Source of the DNA: a virus
Reading direction: 5' to 3' (one strand)
Length of the DNA stretch: 64,000 bases
IMG/VR virus record: IMGVR_UViG_3300034418_011142
Coordinates: 1 to 64,000 of that record
Below the pieces are notes generated by a model. That model searched no databases and had not been told where the DNA came from. It saw nothing but the letters and a program-made list of their open reading frames with translations. Within the stretch, counting starts at the first letter, position 1. Each line of letters starts with the position of its first letter. Shown piece by piece: positions 3,518-20,894 of this stretch. The position numbers and the translations under genes are program-made.

Positions 3518-4063
3518 ATGATCAAACTTGTAGATCTATTAAATGAAATAGATATACCCAAAAATAAATGGGTTACTATCCCTGCTTCTGAATTAAAGGA
3601 TTACAGTGAAGAAATTTTTAATTTAATTGATAACGCTTATACCCCAATAGGAGGTCATCCTAACTATAAATCAGCAGATAATGTATCAGGCAGTGAATCT
3701 GATGCGGAATATGAAGTAATAGATTTAGATGATGATCCTCAAATTGATGCTGTATCAGCTGCTAAACCTAAAGCAGCAGGTAAAAAGTTTACAGCAACAG
3801 GGCATGATGGTTCTAGTGCTGCTAAATCTAGTGTTGTAAATTACAAAGCATCCCAATTAAAAACAGGAGGATATTTTGTAGAAGTATCAGGTAAAATAAA
3901 AGATATCTTCAAAGCTAAAGGTGTAGAAGCTATTAACGATGAAGAATTGGTACGTAAAGTACTTAAGGGAAAAGAAATTGAGTGGTTAGGTAATGGAGAA
4001 TATAAAAGAGAAATTGGTGGTAAAGTATTTACTAAAGCATTAATGGGAAAACCAACAGTATGA
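3518..4063 (+). CDS. Putative capsid-cargo protein, unrecognised
   Basis: 181 residues. The N-terminus MIKLVDLLNE ends in Leu-x-Glu at residue 10, the same length and pattern as the T4 internal-protein targeting peptide MKTYQEFIAE. The middle (about 45-100) is acidic then Ala/Lys/Ser-rich and probably disordered. A folded segment from about residue 105 contains GGYFVEVSGKIKDIFKAKG and WLGNGEYKREIGGK. No enzymatic motif is seen. It overlaps the following kinase gene by four bases, and that protein begins with a similar tag. Confidence 0.6.
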   Translation: MIKLVDLLNEIDIPKNKWVTIPASELKDYSEEIFNLIDNAYTPIGGHPNYKSADNVSGSESDAEYEVIDLDDDPQIDAVSAAKPKAAGKKFTATGHDGSSAAKSSVVNYKASQLKTGGYFVEVSGKIKDIFKAKGVEAINDEELVRKVLKGKEIEWLGNGEYKREIGGKVFTKALMGKPTV

Positions 4064-4860
4064 TAAGTTTAGTACAATTATTAAGAGAAGCACAAGGTAG
4101 CCCTAAAGCGGTTATCTTAGCAGGAGCACCTGGAGCAGGTAAAGGATATGTTTTACGTGGTCTAGATCTAGGTGGCCTAAAGGTAATGAATGTAGATAAT
4201 TTGTATATAAATAATCTAAAAAAAGCAAATGTATCTTTAGATTTAAAAAACTCTACACCTGAAGAAAGAAGTGAAGCAGCAAAAGCAATGGCAGCAGCTG
4301 TTAAAGATTTTAAAGGAGATGTAGCTGATACAATTGAAGCTAAAGAATCATTTATATTAGATGGTACAGCAGCATCAGTAAAACAAACTACACAGTTAAA
4401 AAGTGAATTAGAGGAAGCAGGATATGAAGTATTTATGCTTTATGTTTATACTGATCTAGAACGTTCATTAAGACAAAACCAAGACAGATTTGAAAAATCA
4501 GATGGTGAAGATAGAAGTTTAGCACCCTCTATTGTAATGCGTACTTGGTTAGGTGTAACTAAAAATTGGGCACCATATAAAGATATGTTTGGAGGTAATT
4601 TTGTTTCTGTTGCTAACACATTAGAAGACGAAAAGTTAAAAGATGTAGAAGATGTAATTAAAAAATATCTTGACCCATTTAAACCAACAGGTACTAAACC
4701 AAAAACTCCAGCCCAACAAGCTAGAAGTGATAAACAAAAAGCAGAATTAAATGCTGATGTTCAAGCATTATTAAGTGATGATGGAGCTAAAGATATTATA
4801 GATGGTTCTGTATCTAAGGAAGAGGCACAATCTAAACTAAAACAATTCTTATCTAAATGA
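4060..4860 (+). CDS. P-loop kinase, zeta-toxin/polynucleotide-kinase-like, with N-terminal tag
   Basis: 266 residues. A Walker A motif GAPGAGKG occupies residues 22-29 and is followed by VMNVDNLY, a likely substrate-binding Asp. FILDGTAA near residue 98 is the Walker B-like strand, and YVYTDLERSLRQNQDR resembles the lid/Arg segment of zeta-toxin and AAA_33 kinases. The first ten residues, MISLVQLLRE, resemble the tag of the gene before. The C-terminal 60 residues are Lys/Gln/Ala-rich and helical. The substrate (nucleotide, nucleic acid end or a sugar-nucleotide as in zeta toxins) cannot be told. Tag and neighbours suggest packaging into the head, which is inference. Confidence 0.65.
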   Translation: MISLVQLLREAQGSPKAVILAGAPGAGKGYVLRGLDLGGLKVMNVDNLYINNLKKANVSLDLKNSTPEERSEAAKAMAAAVKDFKGDVADTIEAKESFILDGTAASVKQTTQLKSELEEAGYEVFMLYVYTDLERSLRQNQDRFEKSDGEDRSLAPSIVMRTWLGVTKNWAPYKDMFGGNFVSVANTLEDEKLKDVEDVIKKYLDPFKPTGTKPKTPAQQARSDKQKAELNADVQALLSDDGAKDIIDGSVSKEEAQSKLKQFLSK

Positions 4861-7076
4861 GTTTAGTAAACGAATTAATAAAAGGGTTATTACCTGAAGA
4901 GGAAAAAAAACAAACTACAGCAGTATATGCTGGTGGTTTTAAACCACCTACTTCTGGGCATTTTGAAGTTGTAAAACAAGCACTTAAAGAAAATCCTGAG
5001 ATAGATGAGTTTATTATTTTTGTAGGTGCTAAAGAACGAAATGGTATTTCCCAATCTGAATCCTTATTAATTTGGGAAATATATAATAATTATCTTCCGT
5101 TTAAAGTTAAAATAGAACCTACCTCTATTCCTCCAATTAAAGCAGTATATGATTTTTCCAAAAACCATCCTACAAGAGAGGTATTATGGGTTATAGGTGC
5201 AAGAGAAGGAAACGAAGAAGATTTTAAAGATATTACCTCTAGGACATCTTCAATTTCAAAATATCCAAATCTAGAACTTCGTACTATTATAACTAAAGGT
5301 GGAGTATCAGGTACAGCCGCTCGTAACGCAGCTAAAGTTTCACTTGATAAGTTTGCAAAATTTGTACCCGACCAACTATCAGACGAAGAAACAGAAGAAG
5401 TATATAATATAGTAGCAGATAAAATCCAAGAAATCCAAACACCAGCTAAAGAAAAAGATGTTGACCCTAAAGAACTTAAAATGGGGATCAAAGTTGAAAT
5501 GGAACATACAGATGATCCAGCTAAAGCTAAAGTAATTGCTTTACAACATTTAGCTGAGGATCCAAAATATTATACTAAATTAGCTAGTTTAGGATTAGAA
5601 GAAAAAAAAGATCCTAAAAAAGGTACAGGCAAAAAACCAGAAGGTTCAGGACGTAGATTATACACAGATGAAGATCCTAAAGATACAGTAGGTGTTAAAT
5701 TTTCTACTAGACAAGATATTGTAGATACTTTAAACAAAAAATCTTTTAAAGCTAAATCACATGCTCGTCAATCCCAAATTATTAATTTAATACATCAAAG
5801 AGTAAGAGCGGCATATGGTAGAGCAAAGGATCCTGATGTTAAAAAACGTTTAAAAACAGCTTTAGATTATGCTGAAGAAAGAAAAGAAGCATCTAAAGAA
5901 AAAACTCAACGTTTAAAAAAACAAAAAAGCGAAAATGTAGCTCCTAATCATAAAGGTAAAGCTGCACCTTATGGCTCAGGATATAAAAAACTAAAAGAAA
6001 ATGCTACATATTCTCAACACATAGACATAGTTGAAAAAATAGCTGATTTAACTAACTATATGATAGAAAGTGGTTTAAATATTGAACCTCTACCTACTAT
6101 GGAATTTATAGATGGTGACACAGAAAATGCTCAAAATTTCTTTGGTAAAACAGCATATTATGATCCCAATAATCAGCATATTGTATTGTATACTGAAGGT
6201 AGACATCCAAAAGATATATTACGTTCATATGCGCATGAAATGATACATCATATACAATATTTAGAAGATAGATTACATAATATCACTACTACAAATACTA
6301 ATGAAGATGAAGATTTAGATGCTATTGAAAAAGAAGCATATGTTAGAGGTAATATGACATTTAGAAATTGGACAGATAGTTTAAATGAAGCAATTGTAGG
6401 TGAAAAAATCGAATGTGATAATTGTGACTGGAGTTGGAATATAAAAGATGGTGGTGATGATTTATTTATATGTCATAAATGTGGGCATAACAATAAACCT
6501 CTAAGTGAAGGTAAGAAAAAAGACCCATTTGGTTTATTAGCATATGCTCAAGAATTAGGTCGTTTGAGAGAGGAAGAAAGCGAATATAAAGTCTATTTAG
6601 ATATGGATGGTGTATTAGCTGATTTTGATCAACGTTTTAGAGACATATCAGGAATGGAACCGAAAGAATTTGAAAATAAATATGGTACAAAAGCATTTTG
6701 GAACCTTATAGACGAGGAAAATAAAATTAAATTTTGGGTTGGTATTCCCGTAATGCCAGGTGCTGCTGATTTAGTAGATGCTGTTAAAGATTATAATTAT
6801 GAATTATTAACATCACCCTCAGCTAAAAAACAATCATATTTAGGAAAAATTCTTTGGGTAAAAAATCATACAGGTGACGTGTTTCCCTCAAAACCTCGTA
6901 TTAACTTTAAGAAAGCAAAGGAAAAACACCTTGTTAAACCACAGCTAGCAAAAACAGATATTCTAATAGATGATAGAGAAGATACTATTGGAAGGTGGAA
7001 TGCAGCAGGTGGTACAGGTATAGTATACAAAAATATAAGCCAAGTACTAAACGACTTGGGCAAATTAGGTTTATGA
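4857..7076 (+). CDS. Multi-domain fusion: nucleotidyltransferase, DUF5661-like, zinc peptidase-like, zinc ribbon, HAD phosphatase
   Basis: 739 residues. Domains in order: (1) about 20-165, HIGH-type nucleotidyltransferase with AGGFKPPTSGH (24-35) and GGVSGTAAR (148-156); (2) about 205-245, a DUF5661-like MGIKVEMEHT segment; (3) about 255-380, a basic SGRRLYTDEDP ... SHARQSQIIN domain; (4) about 385-510, a zinc-peptidase-like region with HEMIHH (460-465); (5) Cys520, Cys523, Cys539, Cys542 zinc ribbon; (6) about 577-739, HAD 5'-nucleotidase-like with DMDGVLADF (582-590) and DILIDDREDT. Leu-x-Glu or related motifs (GLEEKK, KLKEN, LSEGKK, RLREEE) sit at domain borders, so it may be a polyprotein processed by the prohead protease. 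Overlaps four bases with both neighbours. Confidence 0.7.
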   Translation: MSLVNELIKGLLPEEEKKQTTAVYAGGFKPPTSGHFEVVKQALKENPEIDEFIIFVGAKERNGISQSESLLIWEIYNNYLPFKVKIEPTSIPPIKAVYDFSKNHPTREVLWVIGAREGNEEDFKDITSRTSSISKYPNLELRTIITKGGVSGTAARNAAKVSLDKFAKFVPDQLSDEETEEVYNIVADKIQEIQTPAKEKDVDPKELKMGIKVEMEHTDDPAKAKVIALQHLAEDPKYYTKLASLGLEEKKDPKKGTGKKPEGSGRRLYTDEDPKDTVGVKFSTRQDIVDTLNKKSFKAKSHARQSQIINLIHQRVRAAYGRAKDPDVKKRLKTALDYAEERKEASKEKTQRLKKQKSENVAPNHKGKAAPYGSGYKKLKENATYSQHIDIVEKIADLTNYMIESGLNIEPLPTMEFIDGDTENAQNFFGKTAYYDPNNQHIVLYTEGRHPKDILRSYAHEMIHHIQYLEDRLHNITTTNTNEDEDLDAIEKEAYVRGNMTFRNWTDSLNEAIVGEKIECDNCDWSWNIKDGGDDLFICHKCGHNNKPLSEGKKKDPFGLLAYAQELGRLREEESEYKVYLDMDGVLADFDQRFRDISGMEPKEFENKYGTKAFWNLIDEENKIKFWVGIPVMPGAADLVDAVKDYNYELLTSPSAKKQSYLGKILWVKNHTGDVFPSKPRINFKKAKEKHLVKPQLAKTDILIDDREDTIGRWNAAGGTGIVYKNISQVLNDLGKLGL

Positions 7077-7674: not shown

Positions 7675-8871
7675 ATGAAAGACAATTTTGATATACATGC
7701 TTGGAATATAAAGAGATATTTAAATGAATTAGATATAGACAACCAAGATGATATAGATGGTTCATTAAATGTAACTGGTGGTGGAGACGATCCTAAACTA
7801 GGTGGAGAACTTGAAGCTGGAGTTGTTGGAGATAGAGTAGAAGAAAACCAATCTCAACTAGAATTTTTAGCTCAATATTTAAATTCAATGCATCCTGAAT
7901 TAACATGGGAAGTTGAATTTGGAGAAAGAATTGAAGCTTATGGTTCAGCTCAAGATTTAGCTAATTTTGGAAACAAATACCATGGTAAAAAATTTGGTGA
8001 ATATGAAGTATTCCATGTAGAAGATGATGATAGATTAGACATAGTTCGTATTATTAAATCTTCAAGCATAAAAAGAGGAGGTATAAATGAATACTCTAAA
8101 TACAATAATATAGCTAGTTATGGTTATAAAGGATATAAAGATAAACACTTTGATATTTGTCCAGCAGCCGAAGGTTTAAGAGATAGATTATTAGCTGGAG
8201 AATTTAAAGATAATAACTGGGCTACAGGAACTGATTTTGAAAAAGAAGTAGGTGAATGGCTTTACAGACATGATATTTTATTTCAAATTGAAAAACAAGT
8301 ATTAAGAGATAAAGAAGGTGATCAAAGCGATGTAGAAGATGCAAAAAAAGCTGTAGATAGAATTGTTAATTTATCTCGCGATTTAGGTATCCCCGCTGCC
8401 GAAATTTCTTATTTAAAAGCTCATATTCAAAAAATTAAAGATATAGTTGAATATAGTTCTTTAACAGAAAAAGAAGATGATGAATTTGCAGGATCTGATC
8501 CTAAAGCAGGTTCAACTATTCAAGGTACAGGATTTGATTGGAAAAAAAAAGATTCAATTAAAGAAACCATTAAATTTATAATGGATAACCTTCAAGGTTA
8601 CTCCAATTACTTCCCAGGTGGAAAAACAAAAGGTTTAAGCTCAGATGAAATGTCTACTATCTTAATGCAAATTGCTAAAGATATTGAAGATGATGGAATG
8701 CAATTAGATGAATCTAAACTTTGTAAAAGAGGCAGAGATTATATTGCTGCTAGAAAAAGAGCAGGAGAAAAATCTTCAGCTTATTTATCTGGTCGTGCTG
8801 TAAAAGTTTGTAAAGGTCAAATTAAGGGTACTAAAGGTAAAAAACGTAAAGACTATAAAGGTAACAAATGA
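7675..8871 (+). CDS. Putative capsid-cargo protein with basic C-terminal tail
   Basis: 398 residues. The N-terminus MKDNFDIHAWNIKRYLNE ends in Leu-x-Glu at residue 18 and resembles the shorter MDNFDLKKYLAE tag at 16575, 16936 and 17437. An acidic, Gly-rich linker follows. The middle is mixed alpha/beta with a segment (about 60-130) that looks like a small substrate-binding fold but that I cannot name. The last 50 residues are strongly basic with KRGRDYIAARKRAGEKSSAY, a type of tail seen in DNA-associated phage proteins. Virion packaging with DNA contact is inferred from tag and charge. Confidence 0.6.
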   Translation: MKDNFDIHAWNIKRYLNELDIDNQDDIDGSLNVTGGGDDPKLGGELEAGVVGDRVEENQSQLEFLAQYLNSMHPELTWEVEFGERIEAYGSAQDLANFGNKYHGKKFGEYEVFHVEDDDRLDIVRIIKSSSIKRGGINEYSKYNNIASYGYKGYKDKHFDICPAAEGLRDRLLAGEFKDNNWATGTDFEKEVGEWLYRHDILFQIEKQVLRDKEGDQSDVEDAKKAVDRIVNLSRDLGIPAAEISYLKAHIQKIKDIVEYSSLTEKEDDEFAGSDPKAGSTIQGTGFDWKKKDSIKETIKFIMDNLQGYSNYFPGGKTKGLSSDEMSTILMQIAKDIEDDGMQLDESKLCKRGRDYIAARKRAGEKSSAYLSGRAVKVCKGQIKGTKGKKRKDYKGNK

Positions 8872-9143
8872 CCCCAAATTACGAAGAAATATTACGTGAA
8901 TCTTTAAAAGATTGGTTCGGTAAAGAAGATTGGGTCCGAATTAATACCTCAGGTAATATAGCTGGTCCTTGTGGTACAATGAAAAAAGGTAAACCTACAA
9001 CTAGATGTTTACCTCGTAAAAAAGCTCAATCACTAACTAAAGCAGAACGTAAAGCTACTGTAGCTAAAAAAGTACGTGGTAGTAAAAAAGGTAAACAGTT
9101 TGTAAAAAATACTGAAAAAGCTGAATTTAAAAAGAAAAAATGA
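8868..9143 (+). CDS. Small basic protein, DUF5872-like
   Basis: 91 residues, highly basic. The N-terminus MTPNYEEILRES carries Leu-x-Glu at residues 9-11. The core GNIAGPCGTMKKGKPTTRCL with two cysteines, followed by Lys-rich KAQSLTKAERKATVAKK, matches my recollection of DUF5872-type proteins. The C-terminus is almost pure Lys/Phe/Glu. Charge suggests binding to packaged DNA. The start overlaps the previous stop by four bases, and its own stop overlaps the lipoprotein start by four bases. Confidence 0.6.
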   Translation: MTPNYEEILRESLKDWFGKEDWVRINTSGNIAGPCGTMKKGKPTTRCLPRKKAQSLTKAERKATVAKKVRGSKKGKQFVKNTEKAEFKKKK

Positions 9144-9758: not shown

Positions 9759-10394
9759 ATGAGCGATTTTAATTATCAAGAATATTTAAGAAACAATCCT
9801 TTACTTAAAGAAGAAGTGAAGGACCAATTAATCACTGAATCTCAAGAAGTTGAGGAAGTAGAATTACCTTCTTCTACCTTAACTAAAACTAATTCTGAGG
9901 TAACAAATATCAAAACCATGGCACAAGCTATGTTAGATTTTTTTAACCAAGTTAAAGAAAAAGAAGCAGTAGATTTTGAATCTAATGCTAGTATGAAAGT
10001 AGTATTAGACAAACTTAATACCTTAGCTAAAACAGAAGAAAAAGAAACTGAAGCTGTAGCAGAAAATACAGAAGAAGTAACTGAAGAAACTACATCTAAA
10101 ATGAAAGTATCTGAACTTAAAGCTAAAATTAAAGAAGATATTATTTCATTACTTCAAGAAGAAGAAGAAGAAGATGTAGAAGCTGAAATTGAAGACGAAG
10201 TAGAAGTAGATGTTGAAGAACCAGCAATGAATGCTTCCGATGCACAAGAAGGTCTTACAGCTGATGAAAAAGAAATCCAAGATAGCTTAAAAATTGCTTA
10301 CGATAATGCAGTAGCTATTGGTGATACAAAATTAGCCGATCAAATCGGTAACTCAATTACCTTTTTTACTAGAACACACGTAGTAGAAAGATAA
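9759..10394 (+). CDS. Acidic low-complexity protein, putative head cargo or core protein
   Basis: 211 residues. The N-terminus [19 protein letters not shown] carries a Leu-x-Glu and resembles the tags of its neighbours. The body is extremely Glu/Val/Thr-rich with a run of seven acidic residues near 130-140, and the C-terminal 50 residues are a more ordered helical segment ([20 protein letters not shown]). Composition is close to the scaffold protein at 28848, so a core-type role is possible. No recognised domain. It heads a unit of closely spaced genes. Confidence 0.55.
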
Positions 10395-10395: not shown

Positions 10396-12648
10396 ATGTT
10401 AAACGAGCGCAAACTCACCGAAAACGAATTGGAGCAAAGAAAAATCGCTCTCAAAGGTTTGTTGAAAAACAAACGTGCTCTAGTTAAAAAGTACGGTGCG
10501 GATGCGGAAAAAGTTATGTATGGTATTGCTACTAAACAAGCTAAGAAAAAAGTTGAAAATATGAACTTAGACAAACTTAAAGAAATGATCCAGGATGCTC
10601 TTACAGTTAAAGAGGCATCCCCTTTTGTATTAGCAGCAGACGCAGCTAGAGATGCAGGTAAAAAAGAATTTGAATTCCCTAAAGGCAGTGGCAAAATGCA
10701 CCCTGTTACAATTAAACAGGATATTAAAGAAGATGATTTAGATATAGATGATACTATAAATATTGATACTGGTTTTTCTGGTAGAGCAGATTATGGTGAA
10801 GAAGATAAAGCATTAGGTCAAGAAGATGAACTCGAAATGAAAGGTTTAGAAGAAGATAAATTCCGTGATTCTTCAATGGAAGATGTATTTCAATCTATTA
10901 GAAATCTTGCCCATACTACAGGTATGTCAGAACAAGAAGCAGCTGAAAATGCAATAGATGAAATTAAATTTAAGTTTGGAGTTGATGCTATGTACGAATC
11001 TTTAAACGAAAACCTAAACCCTGAAGTAACTCAAAAAGTAAACCAGTTTATTAAAGCAATGGCTAAACGATATGATTACAGTGAACAAGATGCTGTATAC
11101 GCTATCATGGCTGCTTTAAAACAAAGAAAATTTGATGGTTTAAATGAAGATCTAGACGTTGGGCATCAAGACAACGAACCTCACATGCTTAAAAAAGATT
11201 TATATAGAATAGCTAAATATGCAGCTGAACTATATAAAATGATGGATAAATACGATCAAGGTGGAGAAGTAGATTTTCCACACTGGTGGCAATCTAAAGT
11301 TATCAAAGCAAGAGATTATATGGTAGCTGCTAAACACTATTTAGATGGTGAAGAAAAAGTAGACCAAATCGATGCTATGTTAGATGTTAATGAAATTGAT
11401 AATAGTGAATACGCTATGAAGCTTAGAGCACTTAAATCACAACCAGAACCATCTAGAGGTGGAATTGACTACGATGAAGCTTTAACTTTAAGAGGTATAA
11501 AAGCTGAAATCGAAGCTGAAATTGCCCAATTATACAGAGATATGGAACAAGAAGCTGAACCAGAAGGTGGTGAGGTAGCTGATAGATATGGACGTGAATT
11601 AGAAAGGTTAGAAGACCGTTTATATAAAGTTCAAAAACAACTTCGTGATTATGATATGAATGAAGGAGTAAATGAAGAATTATCACCTGAAGATCATTTA
11701 CAAATTGTTAGAGCTATGCTTGTAAAAGCTGAAAAGGATGGAGATGATGACTTAAAAAGAAGAGCTTTAGCTGATATGGAAACCGTTAAGAAAGCATATA
11801 ATTTAAAAGAAGAAATGGATGGTGGTCAATTATTTGATTACTTTGCTAAACAAGGATATGATGTAGAAGAACGTAGACCAGATGGAAGAGAAGCTGGATT
11901 TGAAGGTTATATGGTAAGCTACGGAGATGGTCCATACCCTCAATCAGTAATATTCCAACATAATAAAGATACTGATCAATTTATGATTAGTAGAATGGGT
12001 GGTTATAGAATCGATCAAAAAGATGCTATAAAAGCAGGAATGAGACAAGCAGGCTCTTCAGGTATTGCTGGAAGAGATTCTTATATGACAGATGGAAATT
12101 ACACCCCAGTAGATATTTCAGCTGAAGGTTTAAAAGATATAGTTGATCACGTAATGGGTGGTTTAGGAAGAGAAGCTAAAGCACAAGCAGACTTTTATGG
12201 TGCTAGAGGACGTACTTCAGGTACTATAGATGAAGAAAAAATCGAAGTAGATGCTGATACAAAATTTGAATTACCTTTAAAACACCTTATCCAAAAACAC
12301 GTTAAAGAGGTAATGGATAGCAGAAAGAAAAAAGAATTCAAAGTAGGCGATAAAGTAACATACTTAGGACATCCAGGTGAAATCACTAAAGTTAATAAAG
12401 AAATGACTGGTGCTACTACCTATAATGTATCATATGATAAAGGTACAGGTAAAACTAAAGCATCAAACATCTATAATAAAGGTGGTGAAATAAAAGCTTT
12501 AGAAGAAAAACTTACCAAAAAATCATCAGTAGAAAAACATATTGAAGATTTTAAAGATTCAGATGCACCTCAATTTAAAGGTAAATCTCAAGAAAAAAGA
12601 CGTAAAATGGCTGTTGCAGCTTATTTGTCTAAAAAAGATAAAAAATAA
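10396..12648 (+). CDS. Large modular protein of unknown function with KOW-like segment
   Basis: 750 residues. Modules by eye: a basic N-terminal helix with an early Leu-x-Glu (MLNERKLTE); an acidic linker; two small repeated helical units with [20 protein letters not shown] and similar [19 protein letters not shown]; a domain near 260-310 ([20 protein letters not shown] ... FPHWWQSK) of a kind common in marine phage proteins; a long coiled coil; a mixed region near 480-600; and [16 protein letters not shown] near 650, which looks like a KOW/SH3 barrel. Several internal Leu-x-Glu sites (SLNENL, GLNEDL, NLKEEM) separate modules, as in the fusion at 4857. Function unknown. Confidence 0.6.
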
Positions 12649-13097
12649 TGACAGCTTCTGAACTAAAAGAAAAAATAAAAGTACTTGTAAAAAAAGTATA
12701 TAAAGAAAAAGGCAAGGGAGAAGATGCTGCTATCGCATATGATGAGCTAGTTAAATTTCCTGAACTTAAAGCAGTTATTATAGATTTACTTACAGTTGAT
12801 TTTGATAAATTCTTAGAATCAGTAGACTGGATCGCTCCACGTCCTTCAACTTTCCGTATAAATCTGTTGAATGGTGAAAACTTTGTTCTTATATTTGATC
12901 CTAGAAGTTGGATAGCCCAAATATCAGGTAAAAAATATTACCTACTTAATTTGGATGAAGAAGAAATGGCCGCTAAAGCTGTAGCCCGTTTATTATCTTA
13001 TGGAGGTAAAACAGCAACAGGTGCAGGAGCTGATATTGAAGGAGCAGAAGAAATTGAAACCGAAACAGAAACTGAAACGGAAACTGAAGAAGCATAA
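12648..13097 (+). CDS. Hypothetical protein with acidic repeat tail
   Basis: 149 residues. It begins [16 protein letters not shown], again with Leu-x-Glu near the start. A compact alpha/beta region (about 45-110) includes FRINLLNGENFVLIFD and ISGKKYYLLNLDEEE, and the tail is a Glu-Thr dipeptide repeat. It is not recognised. The start overlaps the previous stop by one base (TAATG) and the next gene starts the same way, so all three are likely translated as a unit. Confidence 0.55.
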   Translation: MTASELKEKIKVLVKKVYKEKGKGEDAAIAYDELVKFPELKAVIIDLLTVDFDKFLESVDWIAPRPSTFRINLLNGENFVLIFDPRSWIAQISGKKYYLLNLDEEEMAAKAVARLLSYGGKTATGAGADIEGAEEIETETETETETEEA

Positions 13098-14269
13098 TGA
13101 GCACATTTAATAAATTTTTTAAAAAATTCTCTTATAAATTTGAAAAAGGGTATCCTGATATGGATAACCCTACTGATGTTGCTTTATTAGAATCATTATT
13201 AAGTAAAGTTATTGGGGAAAAAATTATATTAGAAGCTATTAGTAAATCTAAATCGATCCAAGCAGCACAAGATTTTGTTGATAATAGCCAATTTGCTAAA
13301 GATAATGAAGTAAAAAAATTTAAAAGTGGTAAATATGCTAATAGACTTAATTCAAGTAAAGAAAAAGATATAGATAAAATTAAATCAGCTTTAAAAGATT
13401 ATTTTGGGGTTTTAGATAGTGAAATAGAATTTGTTGAAGCTGGAACGGGCCCTGCAAGTAAGGATTCAATGCCTGGATTTAAACTAGACACTGAGGAATT
13501 TGGTGAAATCTATATTTCAGTTAGTACAAGTAAAAAAGGTGCTGGGGGTAAATTAAATGAACAAAACTTTAATAAAAATATTAATGCTTATGCTAGTAAA
13601 GAATCCCCTATTACTGTAAAACTTATAGGAGATAATAAAACATTAACATATGATAATGTAGCTGAAGCCATTGATGTAGCAGGAGGTACCCAGAATAAAT
13701 TAAAAGCTGATACAGCTTTATTATCACCATCAGGAGATAGAGTTGCTAATATATCACTTAAACAACCCGAAGGATTTAGGTGGGCATCATTAAATAATGA
13801 TAAAGAAACAGATTTTAGAAAAGAATTTATTAAAGCTGCCTTTAATGATCCTAATTTTCCTATTACTCTAAAACCAAATCCAAAATTCCCTGATAAAGAG
13901 AGATATGAAATGTATAAAGAGGGAACAGATGACCGTATTACATTAGTAGTAGTTACTGATTCCCCTTACAGCAAAGATCCAAAAAATATTTTTGGTACGG
14001 ATGATCCAAAAACTGTTGTAGTAGGTAAAACATTTAAACCTGAAGACTTTAAATTTAATGAAAATACAAGTATATTAGATGTAAAAGTTGATCATATATA
14101 TGAAACGATGGAGGAGATAGATGGTTCCCCATTTGAACCTGTATTTATAGTTGCTCAACACAGTGGTAATCCTTATGGGTTAGATTTTAGATCATACCCA
14201 AAATTTATGGCTAAATTACCTAAAAAGGGAACAGGAATTGAAATTAAATATAGTGACCTTATAAAATAA
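13097..14269 (+). CDS. Hypothetical protein, 390 residues
   Basis: Not recognised. After a basic N-terminus (FNKFFKKFSYKFEKGYP) there is a helical region, then an alpha/beta part with GEIYISVSTSKKGAGGKLNE near 138-157 and LTLVVVTDSPYS near 277-288. One could imagine a nuclease-like fold from the acidic strand followed by a Lys, but no motif is firm. No signal peptide or membrane segment. It lies inside the accessory block between an acidic small protein and a gene with a conserved phage C-terminal domain. Confidence 0.55.
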   Translation: MSTFNKFFKKFSYKFEKGYPDMDNPTDVALLESLLSKVIGEKIILEAISKSKSIQAAQDFVDNSQFAKDNEVKKFKSGKYANRLNSSKEKDIDKIKSALKDYFGVLDSEIEFVEAGTGPASKDSMPGFKLDTEEFGEIYISVSTSKKGAGGKLNEQNFNKNINAYASKESPITVKLIGDNKTLTYDNVAEAIDVAGGTQNKLKADTALLSPSGDRVANISLKQPEGFRWASLNNDKETDFRKEFIKAAFNDPNFPITLKPNPKFPDKERYEMYKEGTDDRITLVVVTDSPYSKDPKNIFGTDDPKTVVVGKTFKPEDFKFNENTSILDVKVDHIYETMEEIDGSPFEPVFIVAQHSGNPYGLDFRSYPKFMAKLPKKGTGIEIKYSDLIK

Positions 14270-14273: not shown

Positions 14274-15044
14274 ATGTGTAAATGTGGATGTAATACTTGT
14301 GAAACTAAAATTAGAGGCCCTTTACTAACCGAAGGTAAAGTAAAATCTTTATTATCTGAAGGTTTACAATACCATATAGATAAAAAAATACCTTTATTTG
14401 AAACAGTATATCGTATTGGTTCAGAAAAACATTTAGCTTTAATTAAAGAAGCTAGAAAAATGTATTCACGTAATGTAATCGATTTATGTGAAGAAGATGA
14501 AGCGTTAATTGGTACACATTTAGGTGAATTTGCTTTATATGAAGGCGAATCTGTACCATTAGATTTACCTATGTTAAATGAAGCTAAAGTTGATTATAAT
14601 TTTTCAAAAGAAGAACTAATTAGAGTTATCAAGCAACTTAAAAGAGGAGCTAGTACTGAAATAGGAATGATTAAAGCCTTTGAAAAAGCTTTAGGTAGAG
14701 AACTTACAGATGATGAAATTAGAGGATTCAAACTAAATGAAGCAGAATTAGATGAAGCTGAATTTAGAGGTAAAGATGTTCCACTAAACAAACCAAAACG
14801 TGGTGGTTCAAAAGCATATTATGTTTATGTACGTGATCCTAAAACTAAAAAGATTAAAAAAGTATCATTTGGATCAGGTGGTTTAAGAGCTAAAATAAAA
14901 AACAAAGAAGCACGTAACGCCTTCGCAGCACGTCACAATTGTAAAAATAAAAAAGATAGAACAAAAGCGGGATATTGGTCTTGTAATTTACCAAGATATG
15001 CTTCAGCATTAGGTTTAGGTGCTAATATGAATACTTTTTGGTAG
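14274..15044 (+). CDS. Conserved phage protein with KAYYVYVRDP-type C-terminal domain
   Basis: 256 residues. The start has a Cys cluster (MCKCGCNTCE) followed by two Leu-x-Glu-Gly sites (GPLLTEGK, SLLSEGL). The central part is helical with further Glu-rich linkers. The C-terminal 90 residues (GGSKAYYVYVRDPKTKKIKK ... GYWSCNLPRYA ... NTFW) form a basic domain of a type I recall from T4-like marine phages, without known function. It is followed after one base by the next gene. Head association is inferred from the early cleavage-like sites only. Confidence 0.6.
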   Translation: MCKCGCNTCETKIRGPLLTEGKVKSLLSEGLQYHIDKKIPLFETVYRIGSEKHLALIKEARKMYSRNVIDLCEEDEALIGTHLGEFALYEGESVPLDLPMLNEAKVDYNFSKEELIRVIKQLKRGASTEIGMIKAFEKALGRELTDDEIRGFKLNEAELDEAEFRGKDVPLNKPKRGGSKAYYVYVRDPKTKKIKKVSFGSGGLRAKIKNKEARNAFAARHNCKNKKDRTKAGYWSCNLPRYASALGLGANMNTFW

Positions 15045-16334: not shown

Positions 16335-16582
16335 TGCAGCCATACAAAAATAAAGGTAATATAAGAACGTTTTCGAAAGATGTAAATAAACTAGAACTAG
16401 TTTGGCATCAAGACGCTGAAGATAGAGATATCGAGATATTAGAAGGTAAAGGATGGGAATTACAAATGGATAATGAATTACCCTTTGAATTAGTAAAGGG
16501 AGATCGTATATTTATAACAGAAGGTAGAATACACCGAATATTAAAAGGTACAACCGATTTAAAAATAAAAATAAATGGATAA
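16334..16582 (+). CDS. Small cupin-like phage protein
   Basis: 82 residues. The pattern ELVWHQDAEDRDIEILEGKG ... LPFELVKGDRIFITEGRIHR resembles the two-half arrangement of a small cupin barrel, with His residues near 25 and 67 that could bind metal. It is of a conserved type in marine phages, but its function is not known to me. Its start overlaps the previous stop by one base, and its end overlaps the next start by eight bases. Confidence 0.5.
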   Translation: MQPYKNKGNIRTFSKDVNKLELVWHQDAEDRDIEILEGKGWELQMDNELPFELVKGDRIFITEGRIHRILKGTTDLKIKING

Positions 16583-16606
16583 TTTCGATTTAAAAAAATA
16601 TTTAGC
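16562..16606 (+). repeat. 45-base direct repeat, copy 1 (leader plus tag)
   Basis: These 45 bases, covering 13 bases before the ATG and the first eleven codons of the gene at 16575, are identical to 16923-16967. A diverged third copy starts near 17431. Confidence 0.9.
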
Positions 16607-16919
16607 TGAAGGTAGGCTATTTGAAGAAGAAATGAAAGCACCTAGTGGCTGGACTGAAATCAAAGACTTATCAGACCTACATTATAGCGAAGAAGATGGC
16701 GAAATAGCTGTTAAAGCATGGGATGCACCAATGGAAGGGTGGGATGAAGAACATAAAGACATGATCATAATAAGAAAAGATGATGATGGATTTTATTTAG
16801 ATGGGTATGTATCTTTTGGTGATTTTGAAATGCAAGGTCCATTTAACACATATGAAGAAGTGCTTAAATTAGCTGTTGAAGAAATGGAAGCCTTTAAAGA
16901 AGATTGGGACAAATCATAA
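16575..16919 (+). CDS. Putative capsid-cargo protein, tag family member 1
   Basis: 114 residues. The tag MDNFDLKKYLAEGRLFEEE is followed by an acidic globular part of about 95 residues with SGWTEIKDLSDLHYSEEDGE and Trp-rich PMEGWDEEHKDMI, not recognised. The tag, ending in Leu-Ala-Glu at residue 12, is shared with the next two genes and closely follows the pattern of the T4 capsid-targeting peptide (aromatic/hydrophobic-Ile-Ala-Glu). The bodies of the three proteins are unrelated, as expected for cargo carrying a common address signal. Confidence 0.65.
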   Translation: MDNFDLKKYLAEGRLFEEEMKAPSGWTEIKDLSDLHYSEEDGEIAVKAWDAPMEGWDEEHKDMIIIRKDDDGFYLDGYVSFGDFEMQGPFNTYEEVLKLAVEEMEAFKEDWDKS

Positions 16920-16922: not shown

Positions 16923-16967
16923 AAAATAAAAATAAATGGATAATTTCGATTTAAAAAAATATTTAGC
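16923..16967 (+). repeat. 45-base direct repeat, copy 2 (leader plus tag)
   Basis: Identical to 16562-16606. It runs from 13 bases before the ATG at 16936 into codon 11, so the start region, not just the peptide, is duplicated. Confidence 0.9.
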
Positions 16968-17430
16968 GGAAGGTAGACTATTTAAAGAAGAACAAATGGG
17001 TTCTTATGGAAAATTTTTAAAGGTAGTAAAATCATATGAAGATGAAGAAATACTATCCGATTTTTTAGATTCATACCCTAAGGGACAGGATATTAGTAAA
17101 AGTGAATATGATAAATTTACTGAAAAACATTTTGGTCTAGCTGACCCTGAAGATCACCGAGGTAAAAATTGGAAATATATTATGTCTGAAGGACGCTTAT
17201 TAAAAGAAGAATTAACTCCCCTTCAACAGTATGTTTACAACTTCGAAAAAGAAGTTAGTGGTGAAGATAATGCAAAAGAGTTTTTAGATGGTATTAAAAA
17301 ATTAAATACTCCTAAAGATGTTTATGATTATTATGCTTTTGAAAGAAATTGGGAAGGTGATAGTGATCTAGAAGGAGATTTAGAAAATATTTACAATCAA
17401 GTATTAGATAAATTTAAAAGTAAAAATTAA
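16936..17430 (+). CDS. Putative capsid-cargo protein, tag family member 2 with internal second tag
   Basis: 164 residues. The N-terminal tag MDNFDLKKYLAEGRLFKEE is followed by an 60-residue acidic module. Near residue 83 the sequence SEGRLLKEELT appears, nearly the same at DNA level as the tag of the next gene (17181-17216 against about 17471-17506), and a second acidic module follows. It therefore looks like two cargo genes joined after loss of the second start. If the protease cuts at both tags, two small proteins would be released. Neither module is recognised. Confidence 0.65.
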   Translation: MDNFDLKKYLAEGRLFKEEQMGSYGKFLKVVKSYEDEEILSDFLDSYPKGQDISKSEYDKFTEKHFGLADPEDHRGKNWKYIMSEGRLLKEELTPLQQYVYNFEKEVSGEDNAKEFLDGIKKLNTPKDVYDYYAFERNWEGDSDLEGDLENIYNQVLDKFKSKN

Positions 17431-17436: not shown

Positions 17437-18018
17437 ATGGATAACTTTGATTTAAGAAAATATTTAGCTGAAGGTCGCTTATTAAAAGAAGAATTAACTT
17501 TTTCTTTTGACGAATATAGCTATGAAATCGATGATGCTGCTTATCAAGCAGAAGTAGAAGCAGGTATTAAAGCTCAATTACCAAACATTTCAGATAAAGT
17601 TCTACAAGCTATTATAGATAGTTCTGTAGAATACTACTATGATCAAAGAGAAGAAGATGTACCTTCTAGCAATATCGTAGATATGGCAGTTGATTATTAC
17701 AACGATGAAATGACTGGAGACAGTAAACCATCTGCTCCAAGACAAAAATATGATTTATCTGGTGTTGATTTAAGTGGATTAGATAAAGGTCAAAAAGCAG
17801 CTTTTGATGTATTTGTAGATGTTTACCTTAAACCTTATGGTGAAGATGAAACACAAGAAGAACTAGAGCGTTATGTTAGACAATTTGGAAAAGTAGAAGA
17901 TGCGTACGATATCGATTCTATCATCCCAAACTCATTTCAGTACGATAGTGATGAAAGAGAAGCTATGCAATCTAAAGTAAGAAACGCTTATTTATTTGCT
18001 TTTCAACCTATAAATTAA
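17437..18018 (+). CDS. Putative capsid-cargo protein, tag family member 3
   Basis: 193 residues. The tag is MDNFDLRKYLAEGRLLKEE. The body is acidic and helical with Tyr-rich stretches (SSVEYYYDQREEDVP) and a second half beginning LSGVDLSGLDKGQKAAFDVF, not recognised. Two acidic helical modules may be present. The gene ends the unit: a strong terminator hairpin follows 65 bases downstream. Confidence 0.65.
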   Translation: MDNFDLRKYLAEGRLLKEELTFSFDEYSYEIDDAAYQAEVEAGIKAQLPNISDKVLQAIIDSSVEYYYDQREEDVPSSNIVDMAVDYYNDEMTGDSKPSAPRQKYDLSGVDLSGLDKGQKAAFDVFVDVYLKPYGEDETQEELERYVRQFGKVEDAYDIDSIIPNSFQYDSDEREAMQSKVRNAYLFAFQPIN

Positions 18019-18082
18019 AAATAAAAAACATATAGACTGATTCATAGCCAGTCGATTTAATTAAAAAATATTATGGAGCTGT

Positions 18083-18110: not shown

Positions 18111-18111
18111 G

Positions 18112-18124
18112 TTTGTATATTAAC
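18112..18124 (+). promoter_or_regulatory. Second-class promoter-like motif (TTTGTATATTAAC)
   Basis: It stands right after the terminator and 21 bases before the ATG at 18146, where a new unit (UVR-motif protein and FAD enzyme) begins. Confidence 0.45.
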
Positions 18125-18145
18125 GTGTTAAAATAAAGGACAAAT

Positions 18146-18370
18146 ATGAGTAAAAAACTTACCTCAAAAGAAATGATAGAAATGGAACAAAGAGGATTTA
18201 GAATACCTCTCCCAGTTTGGTTATATAATTTAAAAAAAGAGGATAAAATAGATTTTACTGAAGACAGAGTAAAAGATATGCTAAAATTTGCTGTTGAAAG
18301 AGAGTATTATGAAAAAGCAGCTATATTGAGAGATTTTTTAAAAAACAAAAATAAAAGTATAGATGAGTAA
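18146..18370 (+). CDS. Small protein with UVR-like motif
   Basis: 74 residues. The C-terminal half, VEREYYEKAAILRDFLKNK, matches the UVR helix-hairpin (YE-x-A-A-x-LRD) found in UvrB, UvrC and ClpC-associated proteins, where it mediates protein contacts. The N-terminal half (MIEMEQRGFRIPLPVWLY) is not recognised. AAAGGA lies just before the start. Its end overlaps the start of the FAD enzyme by eight bases, so the two are probably co-expressed; it could be an adaptor, but that is a guess. Confidence 0.6.
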   Translation: MSKKLTSKEMIEMEQRGFRIPLPVWLYNLKKEDKIDFTEDRVKDMLKFAVEREYYEKAAILRDFLKNKNKSIDE

Positions 18371-19655
18371 AAACGTAGTAATGATTGGAGCAGGTGTAGC
18401 AAATGTAAATGCTGCTACTAAGCTAGTTGACAATGGATTTAAAGGTAAAATCACTATTATTGATATGGGTAAAGATCCATATTTAAGACCTTATGAAGAA
18501 GTAATGACGGGCTTTTTAGGAGCAGGAGGTTGGTCTGATGGTAAATTAACTTACCATACTTCAATTGGAGGACAATTATCTAAATATTGTGGTGAAGAAA
18601 AGGCAATGGAATTGTTTGACCAGGTGATAGATAATTTTAAACGTTTCCACCCTAAACCAGAAGAAGTACAATGTTCAAATCCAGTTGCAGAACCTGATTT
18701 TATTAAACCATATTTTGGATTACGTTTATTCCCTGTATGGCACGTTGGTACAGATTACTTACATGAAATAGGTAAAAATTGGTATGACTATTTAGTTGAT
18801 AATGGTGTTGAGTTTGTATGGGAAACTAAAGTAACTGATATTGATTTTGATAATCAAGAAGTACATATTGGGTTAGGAGATGATTGGATAGATTATGATG
18901 AACTTATTTTTGGTGTAGGTAAATCAGGTATTGACTTTGGTAAACAATTAGCTGAAAAATATGATTTACCAACTGAACCAAAACCAGTACAAATAGGTGT
19001 TAGGTTTGAAGCACCACAAAAACACTTCCAAAAATTAATTGATATCTCATATGATTTTAAATTATACAGAAAATATGAAGATAAAGGTGTATCATTACGT
19101 TCATTTTGTACAAATAATAACGCTGCTTATGTTGCTGTAGAAGAAACATATGGAGACCATAGTTACAATGGACATGCCAAAAAAGATGAAGCATTTAGAA
19201 ATGATATGACCAATTTTGGTATTCTAATGGAAGTTAGAGGTATTGAAAAACCATTTGAATGGTCTAGAGATGTAGTAAATAAACTACAAAAAGATGGTAC
19301 TGGTTTATATTATAGTCCAAGTAGAGAACCATCTACAACATCTGAAGGTGTAGAAGTATCAGCAGTTAAAGTAGATACACTACATGAAATAACTAAAGCA
19401 ATGCAACCTTATTTTTGGTATGTATTGGATTTTATAGAGGATATGAAAAAAGTATTCCCAACACTTGAAGATGATTGGGGTATTTATGTTCCTGAAGTAA
19501 AATATCTATCACCTGAGCCACTTGTCGATTATACTAATTTAGCACTCACTAAGTATCCTAACGTACACTTTGTAGGCGATGCTTTATCAGCTAGAGGTAT
19601 AACGGTAAGTGGTGCACAAGGTACTTATGTTGCTGAATCACTTTTGGAGAATTAA
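18363..19655 (+). CDS. FAD-dependent dehydrogenase, COG2509-like
   Basis: 430 residues. An N-terminal Rossmann motif VVMIGAGVANVNAA has Gly9 and Gly11, with Asn14 where Gly or Ala is usual, and an acidic Asp34 ends the second strand. GAGGWSDGKLT (53-63) closely follows the GxGGxxxSDGKL signature of the COG2509 dehydrogenases. The C-terminal FVGDALSARGITVSGAQGTY is the second FAD-contacting segment. The reaction of this family is not established. It is an unusual auxiliary gene for a T4-like phage. No signal peptide is present, so it should act in the cytoplasm. Confidence 0.75.
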   Translation: MSKNVVMIGAGVANVNAATKLVDNGFKGKITIIDMGKDPYLRPYEEVMTGFLGAGGWSDGKLTYHTSIGGQLSKYCGEEKAMELFDQVIDNFKRFHPKPEEVQCSNPVAEPDFIKPYFGLRLFPVWHVGTDYLHEIGKNWYDYLVDNGVEFVWETKVTDIDFDNQEVHIGLGDDWIDYDELIFGVGKSGIDFGKQLAEKYDLPTEPKPVQIGVRFEAPQKHFQKLIDISYDFKLYRKYEDKGVSLRSFCTNNNAAYVAVEETYGDHSYNGHAKKDEAFRNDMTNFGILMEVRGIEKPFEWSRDVVNKLQKDGTGLYYSPSREPSTTSEGVEVSAVKVDTLHEITKAMQPYFWYVLDFIEDMKKVFPTLEDDWGIYVPEVKYLSPEPLVDYTNLALTKYPNVHFVGDALSARGITVSGAQGTYVAESLLEN

Positions 19656-19660
19656 AATAT

Positions 19661-19674
19661 TTTTCGTATATTTA
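19661..19674 (+). promoter_or_regulatory. Second-class promoter-like motif (TTTTCGTATATTTA)
   Basis: It begins six bases after the FAD enzyme stop and ends 20 bases before the ATG at 19695. Confidence 0.4.
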
Positions 19675-19694
19675 CATTAAATAAAAACATTATT

Positions 19695-19961
19695 ATGAGC
19701 ATAGAAACAGGACAAACATTTCCAAAATCAAGAAGATTAACAAAACCAGATGGTACAATTGCTTATACCTGGGATGGTAAATTACACAATTGGGATGGTC
19801 CCGCTTTAATACCTGAAGGTAACGAGAAAAAAGCAGAATATTATCTTTATGGTTATCAAAAAACAGAAGAAGATTGGAAGGAAATGAGACGTCAAAGAGA
19901 AGGTATTCCATTCTATAAAAATCAATCAATGAAATCACAATTGTCAGATTATAGAAATTAA
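19695..19961 (+). CDS. Hypothetical protein with MORN-like WDGPA motif
   Basis: 88 residues. The segment YTWDGKLHNWDGPALIPEGN ... EYYLYGYQKTEEDW resembles short phage and bacterial repeats of the form LH-x-x-DGPA followed by a WYxNG-like strand, a single MORN-like unit. The C-terminus is basic and helical. The role is unknown. It lies four bases before the kinase gene and shares its promoter. Confidence 0.6.
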   Translation: MSIETGQTFPKSRRLTKPDGTIAYTWDGKLHNWDGPALIPEGNEKKAEYYLYGYQKTEEDWKEMRRQREGIPFYKNQSMKSQLSDYRN

Positions 19962-19964
19962 GAT

Positions 19965-20495
19965 ATGAAAATAGGTTTATGTGGTACAATGAGTGTAGGT
20001 AAAACTACATTAGTTAATGCTTTAAAAGAAACAAAACAATTTAAAGATTATATGTTTAGAACAGAACGTTCTAAATTTTTAATGGAGCAGGGTATTCCAC
20101 TTAATACTGATTCTACATTAAAAGGTCAAACAGTATTTTTAGCAGAACGTTGTTCTGAGCTATTTCAGGATAATATTATTACGGATAGAACTGTAATAGA
20201 TGTTATGGCTTTTACTTTAAATGCTAAATCAATTGGTCAAAATGAAAAAGAAAAATTTGAAAAGTACGCTAAAGACTTTATCTCGGAATATGATTATATT
20301 TTTTATATTTCTCCTTATGGTATTCCTGTTGAGGACAATGGTGTAAGAGAAACAGATGAACATTATAGAGATTTAATTGATTTTACAATCACAACTCTCA
20401 TCAAAAGATATGGCCATAGATGTCCAGTAGTAGAAGAAATATCTGGATCTACAGATGAACGAATTAAACAAATATTAAATATTACTGGCCTTTAA
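19965..20495 (+). CDS. P-loop nucleotide kinase-like protein (AAA_28/NadR-type)
   Basis: 176 residues. Walker A GTMSVGKT is at 7-14. NIITDRTVIDVMAF (about 67-80) gives the DR-x-x-x-D helix seen in NadR-like and deoxynucleoside-kinase-like proteins, and DYIFYISPYGIP is the strand before the lid region. Such proteins phosphorylate nucleosides or nicotinamide riboside; which one is not clear from sequence. A role in phage nucleotide or NAD supply is plausible. No Leu-x-Glu tag is present, in contrast to the kinase at 4060. Confidence 0.65.
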   Translation: MKIGLCGTMSVGKTTLVNALKETKQFKDYMFRTERSKFLMEQGIPLNTDSTLKGQTVFLAERCSELFQDNIITDRTVIDVMAFTLNAKSIGQNEKEKFEKYAKDFISEYDYIFYISPYGIPVEDNGVRETDEHYRDLIDFTITTLIKRYGHRCPVVEEISGSTDERIKQILNITGL

Positions 20496-20496
20496 T

Positions 20497-20510
20497 ATAT
20501 TTATAATAAA
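20497..20510 (+). promoter_or_regulatory. Late-promoter-like motif (ATATTTATAATAAA)
   Basis: Two bases after the kinase stop and 18 before the ATG at 20529. It would start the unit that leads through the spanin-like pair into terminase. Confidence 0.5.
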
Positions 20511-20528
20511 ATCTAATTATATTATATA

Positions 20529-20894
20529 ATGAAAAAATCTGAATTAACAGCCTTTATTAAAGAAGAAATTTTATCTACATTAAGTGAAGATGCTAAAACT
20601 CAACAAGATATTAAAGATACAGAAGAGTTAACTAAAGCAATGGCTAATTTAGCTAAAGCAAAAGAAGAAGCAGGTTTAACAGAAGAAGAAGATAAAGAAC
20701 CAACTAAAGCAGATTTAAAAGCAACTAAAGGTTTAGCTAAAGCAAAGGAAGAACTTGCTCAATTAACTAAACAAATGAAATCTTTGGCTCGCGATTATAA
20801 AAAAGCTGAAGGGGCTGAAAAAGAAAAAATTGTAGCTGATCTTAAGAAAAAGACAAAACTCAAAAAAGAGTTAGAAGCTATCATAGATAAATAA
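20529..20894 (+). CDS. Lys/Glu-rich helical protein, putative head cargo
   Basis: 121 residues, almost entirely Lys, Glu, Ala, Thr and Leu in coiled-coil-like order. The start MKKSELTAFIKEE contains Phe-Ile-Lys-Glu at residues 9-12, very close to the Phe-Ile-Ala-Glu end of the T4 targeting peptide. No enzymatic motif, signal peptide or membrane segment is seen. It could be a core or internal head protein; the small terminase subunit expected before terminase was not recognised, and a coiled-coil protein in this place could also be that, though the fit is weak. Confidence 0.5.
   Translation: MKKSELTAFIKEEILSTLSEDAKTQQDIKDTEELTKAMANLAKAKEEAGLTEEEDKEPTKADLKATKGLAKAKEELAQLTKQMKSLARDYKKAEGAEKEKIVADLKKKTKLKKELEAIIDK

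Follow-up and report, generated by a model that had tools for sequence, protein, structure and literature searches.

The stretch of DNA analyzed here, which we call the window, has a length of 64,000 nucleotides (positions 1 to 64,000 of the IMG/VR virus record IMGVR_UViG_3300034418_011142) and makes up most of a virus record of 68,863 bases. Directly upstream of its terminase gene (21566), which is of the T4 type, lies a block of genes (3518-20894) in which many of the encoded proteins start with a short tag that ends in hydrophobic-x-Glu and resembles the capsid-targeting sequence (CTS) of the internal proteins (IPs) of phage T4. Based on the results described below, we consider it quite probable that this block, to which we refer as the cargo block, combines swappable T4-type capsid-targeting tags with cargo chains that are cut by a gp21-like protease. 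The tagged genes, the chains and the protease, scaffold and capsid genes discussed are all located on the plus strand.

The head genes

Among named phages, Flavobacterium phage immuto is the closest by terminase (61-62%), and the portal protein (23162) shares 59% identity with the annotated gp20 of immuto. The original prediction placed a gp21-like protease at 28066, and this is borne out: the product of gene 28066..28671 matches the Peptidase_S77 profile of the T4 gp21 family (E 3.3e-29; 102.2 bits, above the curated cut-off of 27) as well as phrog_207 (1.4e-59), and is 47% identical to the immuto protease. Its gene is placed between the portal and capsid (30226) genes, the same order as in the immuto annotation. 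Gene 28848..30197 encodes a presumed scaffold/core protein with the C-terminus ARMQKLAGIIKEN; none of the scaffold families searched was matched, and the name is based on gene order and the acidic make-up of the protein. The major capsid protein (30226..31848; phrog_138, 4.1e-68) is presumed to have a propeptide that is cut after LVVE-58 (nt 30399), LVVE/S, where the slash marks the cut. Both the Glu and the Val at -2 are present in 65/65 members of this family, and the equivalent site reads IVSE/A in immuto and LISE/A in Mel-JY01.

Tagged proteins of the cargo block

Two definitions of a tag were applied. The loose motif is [LIVMF]xE with the Glu at residue 8-20. The strict rule, phi-x-x-phi-phi-x-E, is taken from residues 4, 7, 8 and 10 of T4 IPIII; it was fixed after the tags had been seen, and its positions come from T4. 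Relatives were sampled as 160 loci (the best 80 of 282 plus the best 80 of at least 596 confirmed), some of which lie on one contig. Families were obtained by calling genes in these loci and clustering the bodies without their first 25 residues, and two loci (L001 and L002) are excluded from the family counts.

The tag MIKLVDLLNE (3518..3547) of gene 3518-4063 (181 aa) fits the strict rule, and its Glu is kept in 12/12 family members, the window included; for the body, neither Pfam nor PHROG gave a match. A zeta-toxin/P-loop kinase gene (4060-4860; Pfam Zeta_toxin, 1.6e-16) starts with MISLVQLLRE (4060..4089), whose Glu is kept in 62/63 family members. In the tag MSLVNELIKGLLPE (4857..4898) of the cargo chain encoded by 4857-7076, position 10 is a Gly and the cut site is displaced. 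Gene 7675-8871 carries MKDNFDIHAWNIKRYLNE (7675..7728; strict rule) and is preceded, 22 bases upstream, by the sequence TATTTATA; its predicted model is poor (pLDDT 51), and structure prediction yielded no function. The small basic protein encoded by 8868-9143 also starts according to the strict rule (MTPNYEEILRE, 8868..8900), with the Glu kept in 30/30 family members. It had been called DUF5872-like, a label that did not hold: no Pfam match was found at E 0.01, and the PHROG families matched are all of unknown function. The tag MKKSELTAFIKE (20529..20564) of gene 20529-20894 fits the strict rule as well, and its Glu is kept in 37/39 ungapped family members.

Three tandem genes start with nearly the same tag. 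It had been reported to occur three times; MDNFDLKKYLAE is exact in the first (16575..16610; strict rule) and second gene (16936..16971), and the third (17437..17472; strict rule) has one change, MDNFDLRKYLAE. The second gene also contains an internal tag-like stretch, ...YIMSEGRLLKEE, with sites at nt 17190 and 17208. The acidic protein of gene 9759..10394 has a tag-like start whose Glu column is not conserved, and 3/31 members of its family end in RFKKLAG, resembling the presumed scaffold. The cargo candidate encoded by 12648..13097 (149 aa) has a homologue within an 841-aa chain of immuto (36% over 123 residues, E 3e-20). Gene 13097..14269 begins with an N-terminal module, ...YKFEKGYPDMDNP..., that runs to ILE-46/A, and the body following it differs between relatives. 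A reading of this body as a PD-(D/E)xK nuclease was not confirmed by Foldseek, which gave no match at E <= 0.001; VIA-align returned CdnE-like chains (Z 6.4 over 83 residues) and the restriction enzyme HinP1I (Z 5.2 over 159), values in a range that may mean nothing. Genes without a tag are also present within or next to the cargo zone (3060-3515, 18363-19655, 19965-20495); they encode two proteins that by eye look esterase-like and flavoprotein-like, together with an AAA_28 P-loop protein (3e-11).

Enrichment of tags in the block

The original prediction interpreted these starts as an address signal, and named as a refutation that the motif be no more common than in shuffled sequences. The named N-termini are present, and that outcome was not seen. 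Firstly, the loose motif occurs in 16/23 genes of the block, against a mean of 6.54 when whole proteins are shuffled and of 6.85 when only the first 40 residues are shuffled; in both cases, 0/2000 shuffles reached 16. It is also present in 7/7 head genes (25103-30226), and its frequency in all other genes of the window (10/41; shuffle mean 9.10) is that expected by chance (block versus rest, Fisher p = 5e-4). These counts rely on eight manually assigned gene starts and six manually added small open reading frames, and the rest does not include the seven head genes. Counting the tandem MDNF trio as one gives 14/21 for the block, and the loose matches of 7073, 10396, 12648 and 18146 need not be real tags. 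Secondly, the strict rule, that is, the spacing of IPIII, is found in 9/23 genes of the block (mean of the shuffles 0.86, with 5 as the highest count in 2000) versus 1/7 head genes and 2/41 genes in the rest of the window. In nine related records it matches 47/201 genes of the corresponding zone and 4/69 outside it.

It might be argued that proteins that are rich in Glu and start with a helix yield hydrophobic-x-Glu by accident. A motif of three residues is indeed common, as the 10/41 ordinary genes illustrate, and the strict rule matches 19/245 genes of T4. An origin by chance or composition is already contradicted by the shuffling tests, none of which reached the count of the block, and by the swapping and cross-family sharing of tags described below, and we regard it as extremely improbable.

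With a definition of tagged genes that adds to the rule the patterns learned from these same phages, the nine records contain 4 to 14 tagged zone genes each (82/201 in total), compared with 2/35 from the capsid gene onward. Upstream of the zone in the first loci, 10/414 genes are tagged.

Exchange of tags between bodies

A comparison of the N-termini of relatives had been proposed as a further check, and it showed both that unrelated bodies share tags and that one body can have different tags. The N-termini were compared pairwise between families of at least two members (70 cargo and 58 other families, without head or mixed-position families). A score of at least 30 was reached by 65/2380 pairs of cargo families lacking detected body homology, versus 3/2380 for residues 31-48, 0/2311 for residues 46-63 and 1/1634 for the other families; shuffled N-termini gave a mean of 2.4, the largest of 100 shuffles being 6. 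Because seven YPDMNNP-type families may be distant relatives, the test was repeated without them: 46/1920 pairs remained, versus 1/1920, 0/1858 and 1/1634 in the controls, and 33/63 families take part. As in T4, a short N-terminal segment is common to otherwise unrelated proteins.

The kinase body of 4060 provides an example of a swap: it is 65% identical over 258 residues in different phages (the swap is seen in locus L047), stands behind either MISLVQLLRE or MIDTFDIHKWNYKRYLAE, and the homology begins at the L-x-E. Three other bodies also showed swaps, not counting the B/G pair of the YPDMNNP family, which is an artefact of labelling. At the DNA level, the first 45 bases of nine tandem MDNFD-type genes (window and record G002), which encode the tag, are 80-96% identical, and the next 45 bases share 33-60% identity in 35/36 pairs and 100% in one orthologous pair. 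We also asked whether tags are just better conserved than the bodies behind them. This is not so overall: averaged over residues 2-14, identity does not generally exceed that of positions further in, and among the kinases it is the anchor positions of the tag alone that stand out.

Tags, the head and the protease rule

One class of tags suggests a link between the cargo and the head. Five other body families of relatives, of which three consist of one sequence each, carry the MQKLAGIITE-type tag (FRRMQKLAGIITE), and this tag is a close match to the C-terminus ARMQKLAGIIKEN of the presumed scaffold. This form is present in 31/61 members of the scaffold family, and the immuto counterpart ends in SRWQKLAGIIK. 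No tagged protein of the window itself carries a tag of this class.

The cleavage site of T4 gp21 lies directly behind L/I-x-E. Of the residues of the IPIII tag, 4 and 7 act in targeting, 8 and 10 in processing; an Asp at position 10 blocks processing and not targeting (PMC9026906). In the four main tag families analyzed here, the tag Glu is present in 141/144 ungapped members and is never replaced by Asp. At other acidic columns, Asp is common in three of these families (E:D 96:15, 662:126 and 420:58), and the fourth has no other acidic column for comparison. A conserved L/I-x-Glu end is the general pattern, from which the 9759 family departs, as does the 8868 family in part, at -2.

The tags could, alternatively, be a shared N-terminal leader with another role, such as in translation, membrane association or chaperone binding, and end in L/I-x-Glu by coincidence. 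N-termini also affect translation, and the tag DNA itself is conserved in the tandem genes. Three observations argue against this explanation, which we judge very unlikely: one tag class matches a C-terminal segment, namely that of the presumed scaffold, the Glu is kept as Glu and not Asp, and the same sites are found in the middle of chains (see below). The enrichment, whose statistics had been called for and came out in favor of an address signal, together with tag sharing, tag swaps and the match to the presumed scaffold C-terminus, supports an address signal over shared ancestry, and we are strongly confident that the tags are a signal of the T4 kind.

The sequence TATTTATA is found 21-66 bases upstream of 15/70 genes of the window, versus 1.6 expected, and is similarly enriched in nine other records. 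It precedes the cargo genes 7675, 9759, 16575 and 20529 as well as the portal gene and later genes of the virion region. We regard it as a candidate for a late promoter element in these phages. Since it stands ahead of cargo and virion genes alike, these genes seem to be expressed together. Another form, TATAAATA, was considered as late promoter and rejected, because the form enriched on the coding strand is TATTTATA.

Tag-type sites between the modules of long chains

Sites of the tag type are also present between the modules of long chains, a point absent from the original prediction. The chain of 739 aa encoded by 4857..7076 (DUF5661, 1.1e-10; phrog_2643, 1.5e-24; phrog_395/3041) consists, in this order, of a nucleotidyltransferase, DUF5661, a module that we call 'mid', an HExxH metallopeptidase-like module, a Zn ribbon and a 5'-deoxynucleotidase; the HEMIHH stretch and the Zn ribbon were read straight from the sequence. 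L-x-E stands ahead of modules at residues 381, 511, 551 and 572 (nt 5999, 6389, 6509 and 6572). Relatives contain 14 different strings of at least two of these modules, some of them cut by contig ends, and many extra inserts, including ADP-ribosyltransferase matches that are weak and below curated cut-offs. These matches score 23.3 bits for ART-PolyVal (cut-off 31.2) and 22.8 for Tox-ART-HYD1 (25); a Peptidase_M91 match in the immuto chain, at 17.3 bits (25), is also below its cut-off. The immuto nucleotidase is encoded by a gene of its own, which has a tag-like start, MKKVMGNLADLLLEES.

The second modular chain (10396..12648; 750 aa) gave no Pfam or PHROG match and has two modules in common with a head-operon protein of a relative. 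They are present there in reversed order, with M/L/I-x-E at most of their borders; the start of one of them in 10396 lacks it. In addition, the protein encoded by 14274..15044 has 10 [LIVM]xE sites in 256 aa and ends in a phrog_7595 module that is also present in a chain of phage Melnitz.

For twelve modules, [LIVMF]xE lies just upstream in 158/175 distinct contexts, versus 297/3546 windows of 18 residues inside modules; the poorest are 'mid' (13/22) and RYRAI (3/5). One of the modules seen, DTYEK, had no match in named phages at E 1e-3. As the twelve modules were picked by eye after viewing the chain inserts, a border test independent of that choice was performed. It covered all starts (2382) and ends (2810) of segments shared inside two cargo/core proteins, within 4 residues. 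At these borders [LIVM]xE is enriched 1.72 fold (starts) and 2.00 fold (ends), and [LIVM][NTSG]E[GNAS] 2.45 and 3.12 fold. The controls [LIVM]xD, [LIVM]xK, [LIVM]x[QN], [LIVM]x[STA], [AG]xE and [ST]xE gave 0.72-1.11, and [DE]xE 1.03 and 1.10. The effect is strongest in the chains (4857, 0.39 vs 0.13 random; 10396, 0.41 vs 0.21); in other proteins the ratios are above 1 in most bins and show no peak at the border.

Discussion

The results described above can be brought together as follows. The block 3518-20894 would encode head cargo, each protein of which would begin with a capsid-targeting tag of 10-20 residues, whose hydrophobic residues may dock it on the growing prohead core. The L/I-x-Glu end of the tag would be the site at which the protease encoded by 28066 removes it during prohead maturation. 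In the long chains (4857, 10396 and probably 14274), the protease may also cut between domains, so that several proteins are freed from each chain. The products would remain inside the head together with the DNA and pass into the next host, probably to act there against defences and to reset its nucleotide/NAD metabolism. At the cut sites, genes would exchange tags and modules, by which new cargo could be recruited easily. That the cargo is delivered at infection appears likely to us. The new part of this proposal, the cutting of cargo chains in the head by the prohead protease, we favor with moderate confidence.

A different fate of the tagged proteins is conceivable: they might build the prohead core only, and be cut up and expelled before DNA packaging like gp22, gp67 and gp68 of T4. 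Such a role would agree with the modules shared with head-operon proteins of relatives, with the tag class carried by the presumed scaffold, and with the richness in sites of some of the proteins (19 in the 750 aa of 10396; 10 in the 256 aa of 14274). On the other hand, several bodies match enzyme families (kinase, nucleotidyltransferase, nucleotidase), [LIVMF]xE is rare inside the twelve modules, and a cyanophage cytidyltransferase is retained in virions (PMC3037559). We therefore consider a purely structural role unlikely.

It could also be that the domains of a chain are freed by its own metallopeptidase-like domain, the tag serving for targeting only. Self-processing has been proposed for polyvalent proteins by Iyer et al. 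(2017), who cite that P1 DdrB is processed before packaging (PMC5512222), and both the HExxH stretch of the 4857 chain and the sub-threshold Peptidase_M91 match of the immuto chain would fit such a scheme. However, sites of the same type end the tags of proteins that have no peptidase match and are located at module borders of 10396, a protein without a Pfam or PHROG match, and L/I-x-E is the known rule of gp21 (PMC9026906). This makes self-processing quite unlikely and points to the prohead protease.

Several observations weigh against the proposal that tags and chains are substrates of a T4-type system. As to the rule itself, the strict rule alone is not specific. In a set of 245 T4 genes, from which spliced, overlapping or short genes were left out, it matches 19 (300 shuffles: mean 10.2, largest 19); these include IPII, IPIII, Alt and gp24, 15 are other genes, IPI is missed, and the match of Alt at E10 does not fit its reported propeptide of 7 residues (PMC9026906). 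A tag matrix derived from this clade fails on the T4 tags (AUC, the area under the curve, 0.61, p 0.11; reverse, 0.60, p 0.10), and the strict rule fits 0/20 genes of Melnitz, 0/18 of Cr30 and 1/18 of HTVC008M in the stretches examined. Within the clade, the Glu at the tag-like column of 9759 is present in only 13/32 sequences, the -2 column of the 8868 family has a Glu instead of a hydrophobic residue in 10/30 members, and two body pairs of the tandem genes match weakly at the protein level (E 0.006 and 0.016). The presumed capsid cut is V-x-E and not L/I-x-E; with Val at -2 throughout the clade, the protease, if it cuts there, must accept more than Leu and Ile. At module borders, Glu alone (1.17/1.34 for starts/ends) and [KR]xE (1.19/1.29) are also somewhat enriched, the borders are not independent of each other, and a border effect is absent from the families of the kinase, 9140 and 21149. 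Finally, a search for virion, cleavage or injection data on this clade found none.

Comparison with known systems

The tags share with the CTS of IPI-III that they are short, N-terminal and attached to unrelated bodies, with hydrophobic residues at 4, 7 and 8, a Glu at 10 and an L/I-x-E cut site, which here is a predicted one. The likeness is one of rule and spacing and not of sequence, and by sequence the tags do not belong to the T4 family. The three IPs of T4 share only their leader and block different restriction enzymes, and at least 10 IPs are reported across T4-related phages (PMC12373910). It has already been suggested in a review on T4 that the CTS allows T4-like phages to package various proteins (PMC9026906). 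Different from T4, a single genome here has several classes of tag sequences that are swapped between bodies, the bodies include predicted metabolic enzymes, and tag-type sites are also located within chains. Two further T4 proteins have starts that fit the capsid-tag rule, gp61.1 (L165, 18966-19130; MKTFKEFIKE) and gp2 (L166, record 76061-76885; MAIFQIINE).

A cytidyltransferase of cluster T4-GC190 has been detected by mass spectrometry in purified virions of the cyanophage S-SM1 (PMC3037559), and this is the experimental result that comes closest to the proposed delivery of cargo. The corresponding gene begins with MKKFSAFLNE/A, which has hydrophobic residues at 4, 7 and 8 and a Glu at 10 as in T4 IPIII, and the tag has the T4 spacing in both Syn33 and S-SM1. 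The Syn33 member matches the PHROG families (395 and 3041) of the nucleotidyltransferase of the window, a link that relies on weak profile scores (7.9e-07 and 4.2e-06). The cluster differs in that it comprises a single enzyme with its own tag sequence and not a multi-enzyme chain. Among the neighbourhoods of cytidyltransferase genes (L192, L193, L194 and L188, from HTVC008M, cyanophages and Melnitz), the T4-like starts MKKFSAFLTE, MKTLKELL, MKSFKDF and MKNFKNHIAEE were seen in Kyanoviridae, and few of the genes there fit the strict rule. In the pelagiphage HTVC008M, genes for a kinase, a cytidyltransferase and a nucleotidase lie together in one block, and some genes start with MKTL or MKTF. 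Given that the strict rule fits only one of its 18 genes in this stretch, an old origin of the cargo zone is only a lead.

Other phages also package proteins by means of N-terminal signals. The first 30 residues of DarB of phage P1 send a reporter to the head, an independent precedent (PMC9024508). The P1 Dar system is similar in that an anti-restriction protein with an N-terminal signal is packaged and that DarA is believed to be processed; it differs in its head protease and, as far as the relevant sections of that work go, in having no separate scaffold known and a signal described for DarB only (PMC9024508). In phiKZ and SPN3US many head proteins are cut after x-x-Glu by a gp21 homologue, and two paralogues have identical N-termini (PMC5694885). 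There, however, several propeptides exceed 100 residues, the motif is A-x-E or S/A-x-E, and the portion of the report covering these proteins describes neither swapping of short tags nor module chains (PMC5694885).

The chains resemble the polyvalent proteins, multidomain chains mixing enzymes that are thought to be injected and that Iyer et al. (2017) likened to the polyproteins of RNA viruses (PMC5512222). The chains have one feature of this class, at least two disparate domains in one chain of a mobile element, and an effector role is predicted for them. As to the ART and zincin peptidase domains that are hallmarks of the class, the profile matches seen are the sub-threshold ones in relatives given above. 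The difference is that processing by embedded peptidases was proposed for polyvalent proteins (PMC5512222), whereas the chains analyzed here have sites of the prohead-protease type and CTS-like tags. The system works like the T4 CTS and polyvalent proteins combined. We lean towards the view that this is plug-in cargo, in which one packaged chain is cut in the maturing head into several effectors, like an RNA-virus polyprotein, with cut sites that double as evolutionary swap joints. Among open-licence PMC papers, none was found whose title deals with the cutting of cargo polyproteins by a prohead protease. No proteomics of immuto was found in the literature searched, and its name is absent from PMC7077304.

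Elsewhere in the window, 39145-44700 encodes a protein of 1851 residues that, by eye, consists mostly of collagen-like repeats of the TGTQGTTGTQG type followed by GGG-N repeats and is probably a fibre. Downstream of it (44711-53039), a run of methyltransferase-, glycosyltransferase- and oxygenase-like genes was seen, also by eye.

Implications for T4-like phages

T4 has three internal proteins plus Alt (PMC12373910). In the sampled loci, 71/169 families of the cargo zone are tagged by the combined definition, compared with 5/151 other families; for the T4-derived rule by itself, the figures are 35/169 and 3/151. Patterns learned from the same phages enter into the combined definition, and many of these families are single sequences. 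If our proposal is correct, marine T4-like phages carry far more head cargo than T4, and one particle could deliver a large and easily reshuffled toolkit into the infected cell. By means of the tag, uncultured phages could then be searched at the sequence level for injected anti-defence proteins, and isolates (immuto and S-SM1) exist. It would also follow that phages gain injected proteins in one recombination step, and it would suggest that the prohead protease can process injected polyproteins.

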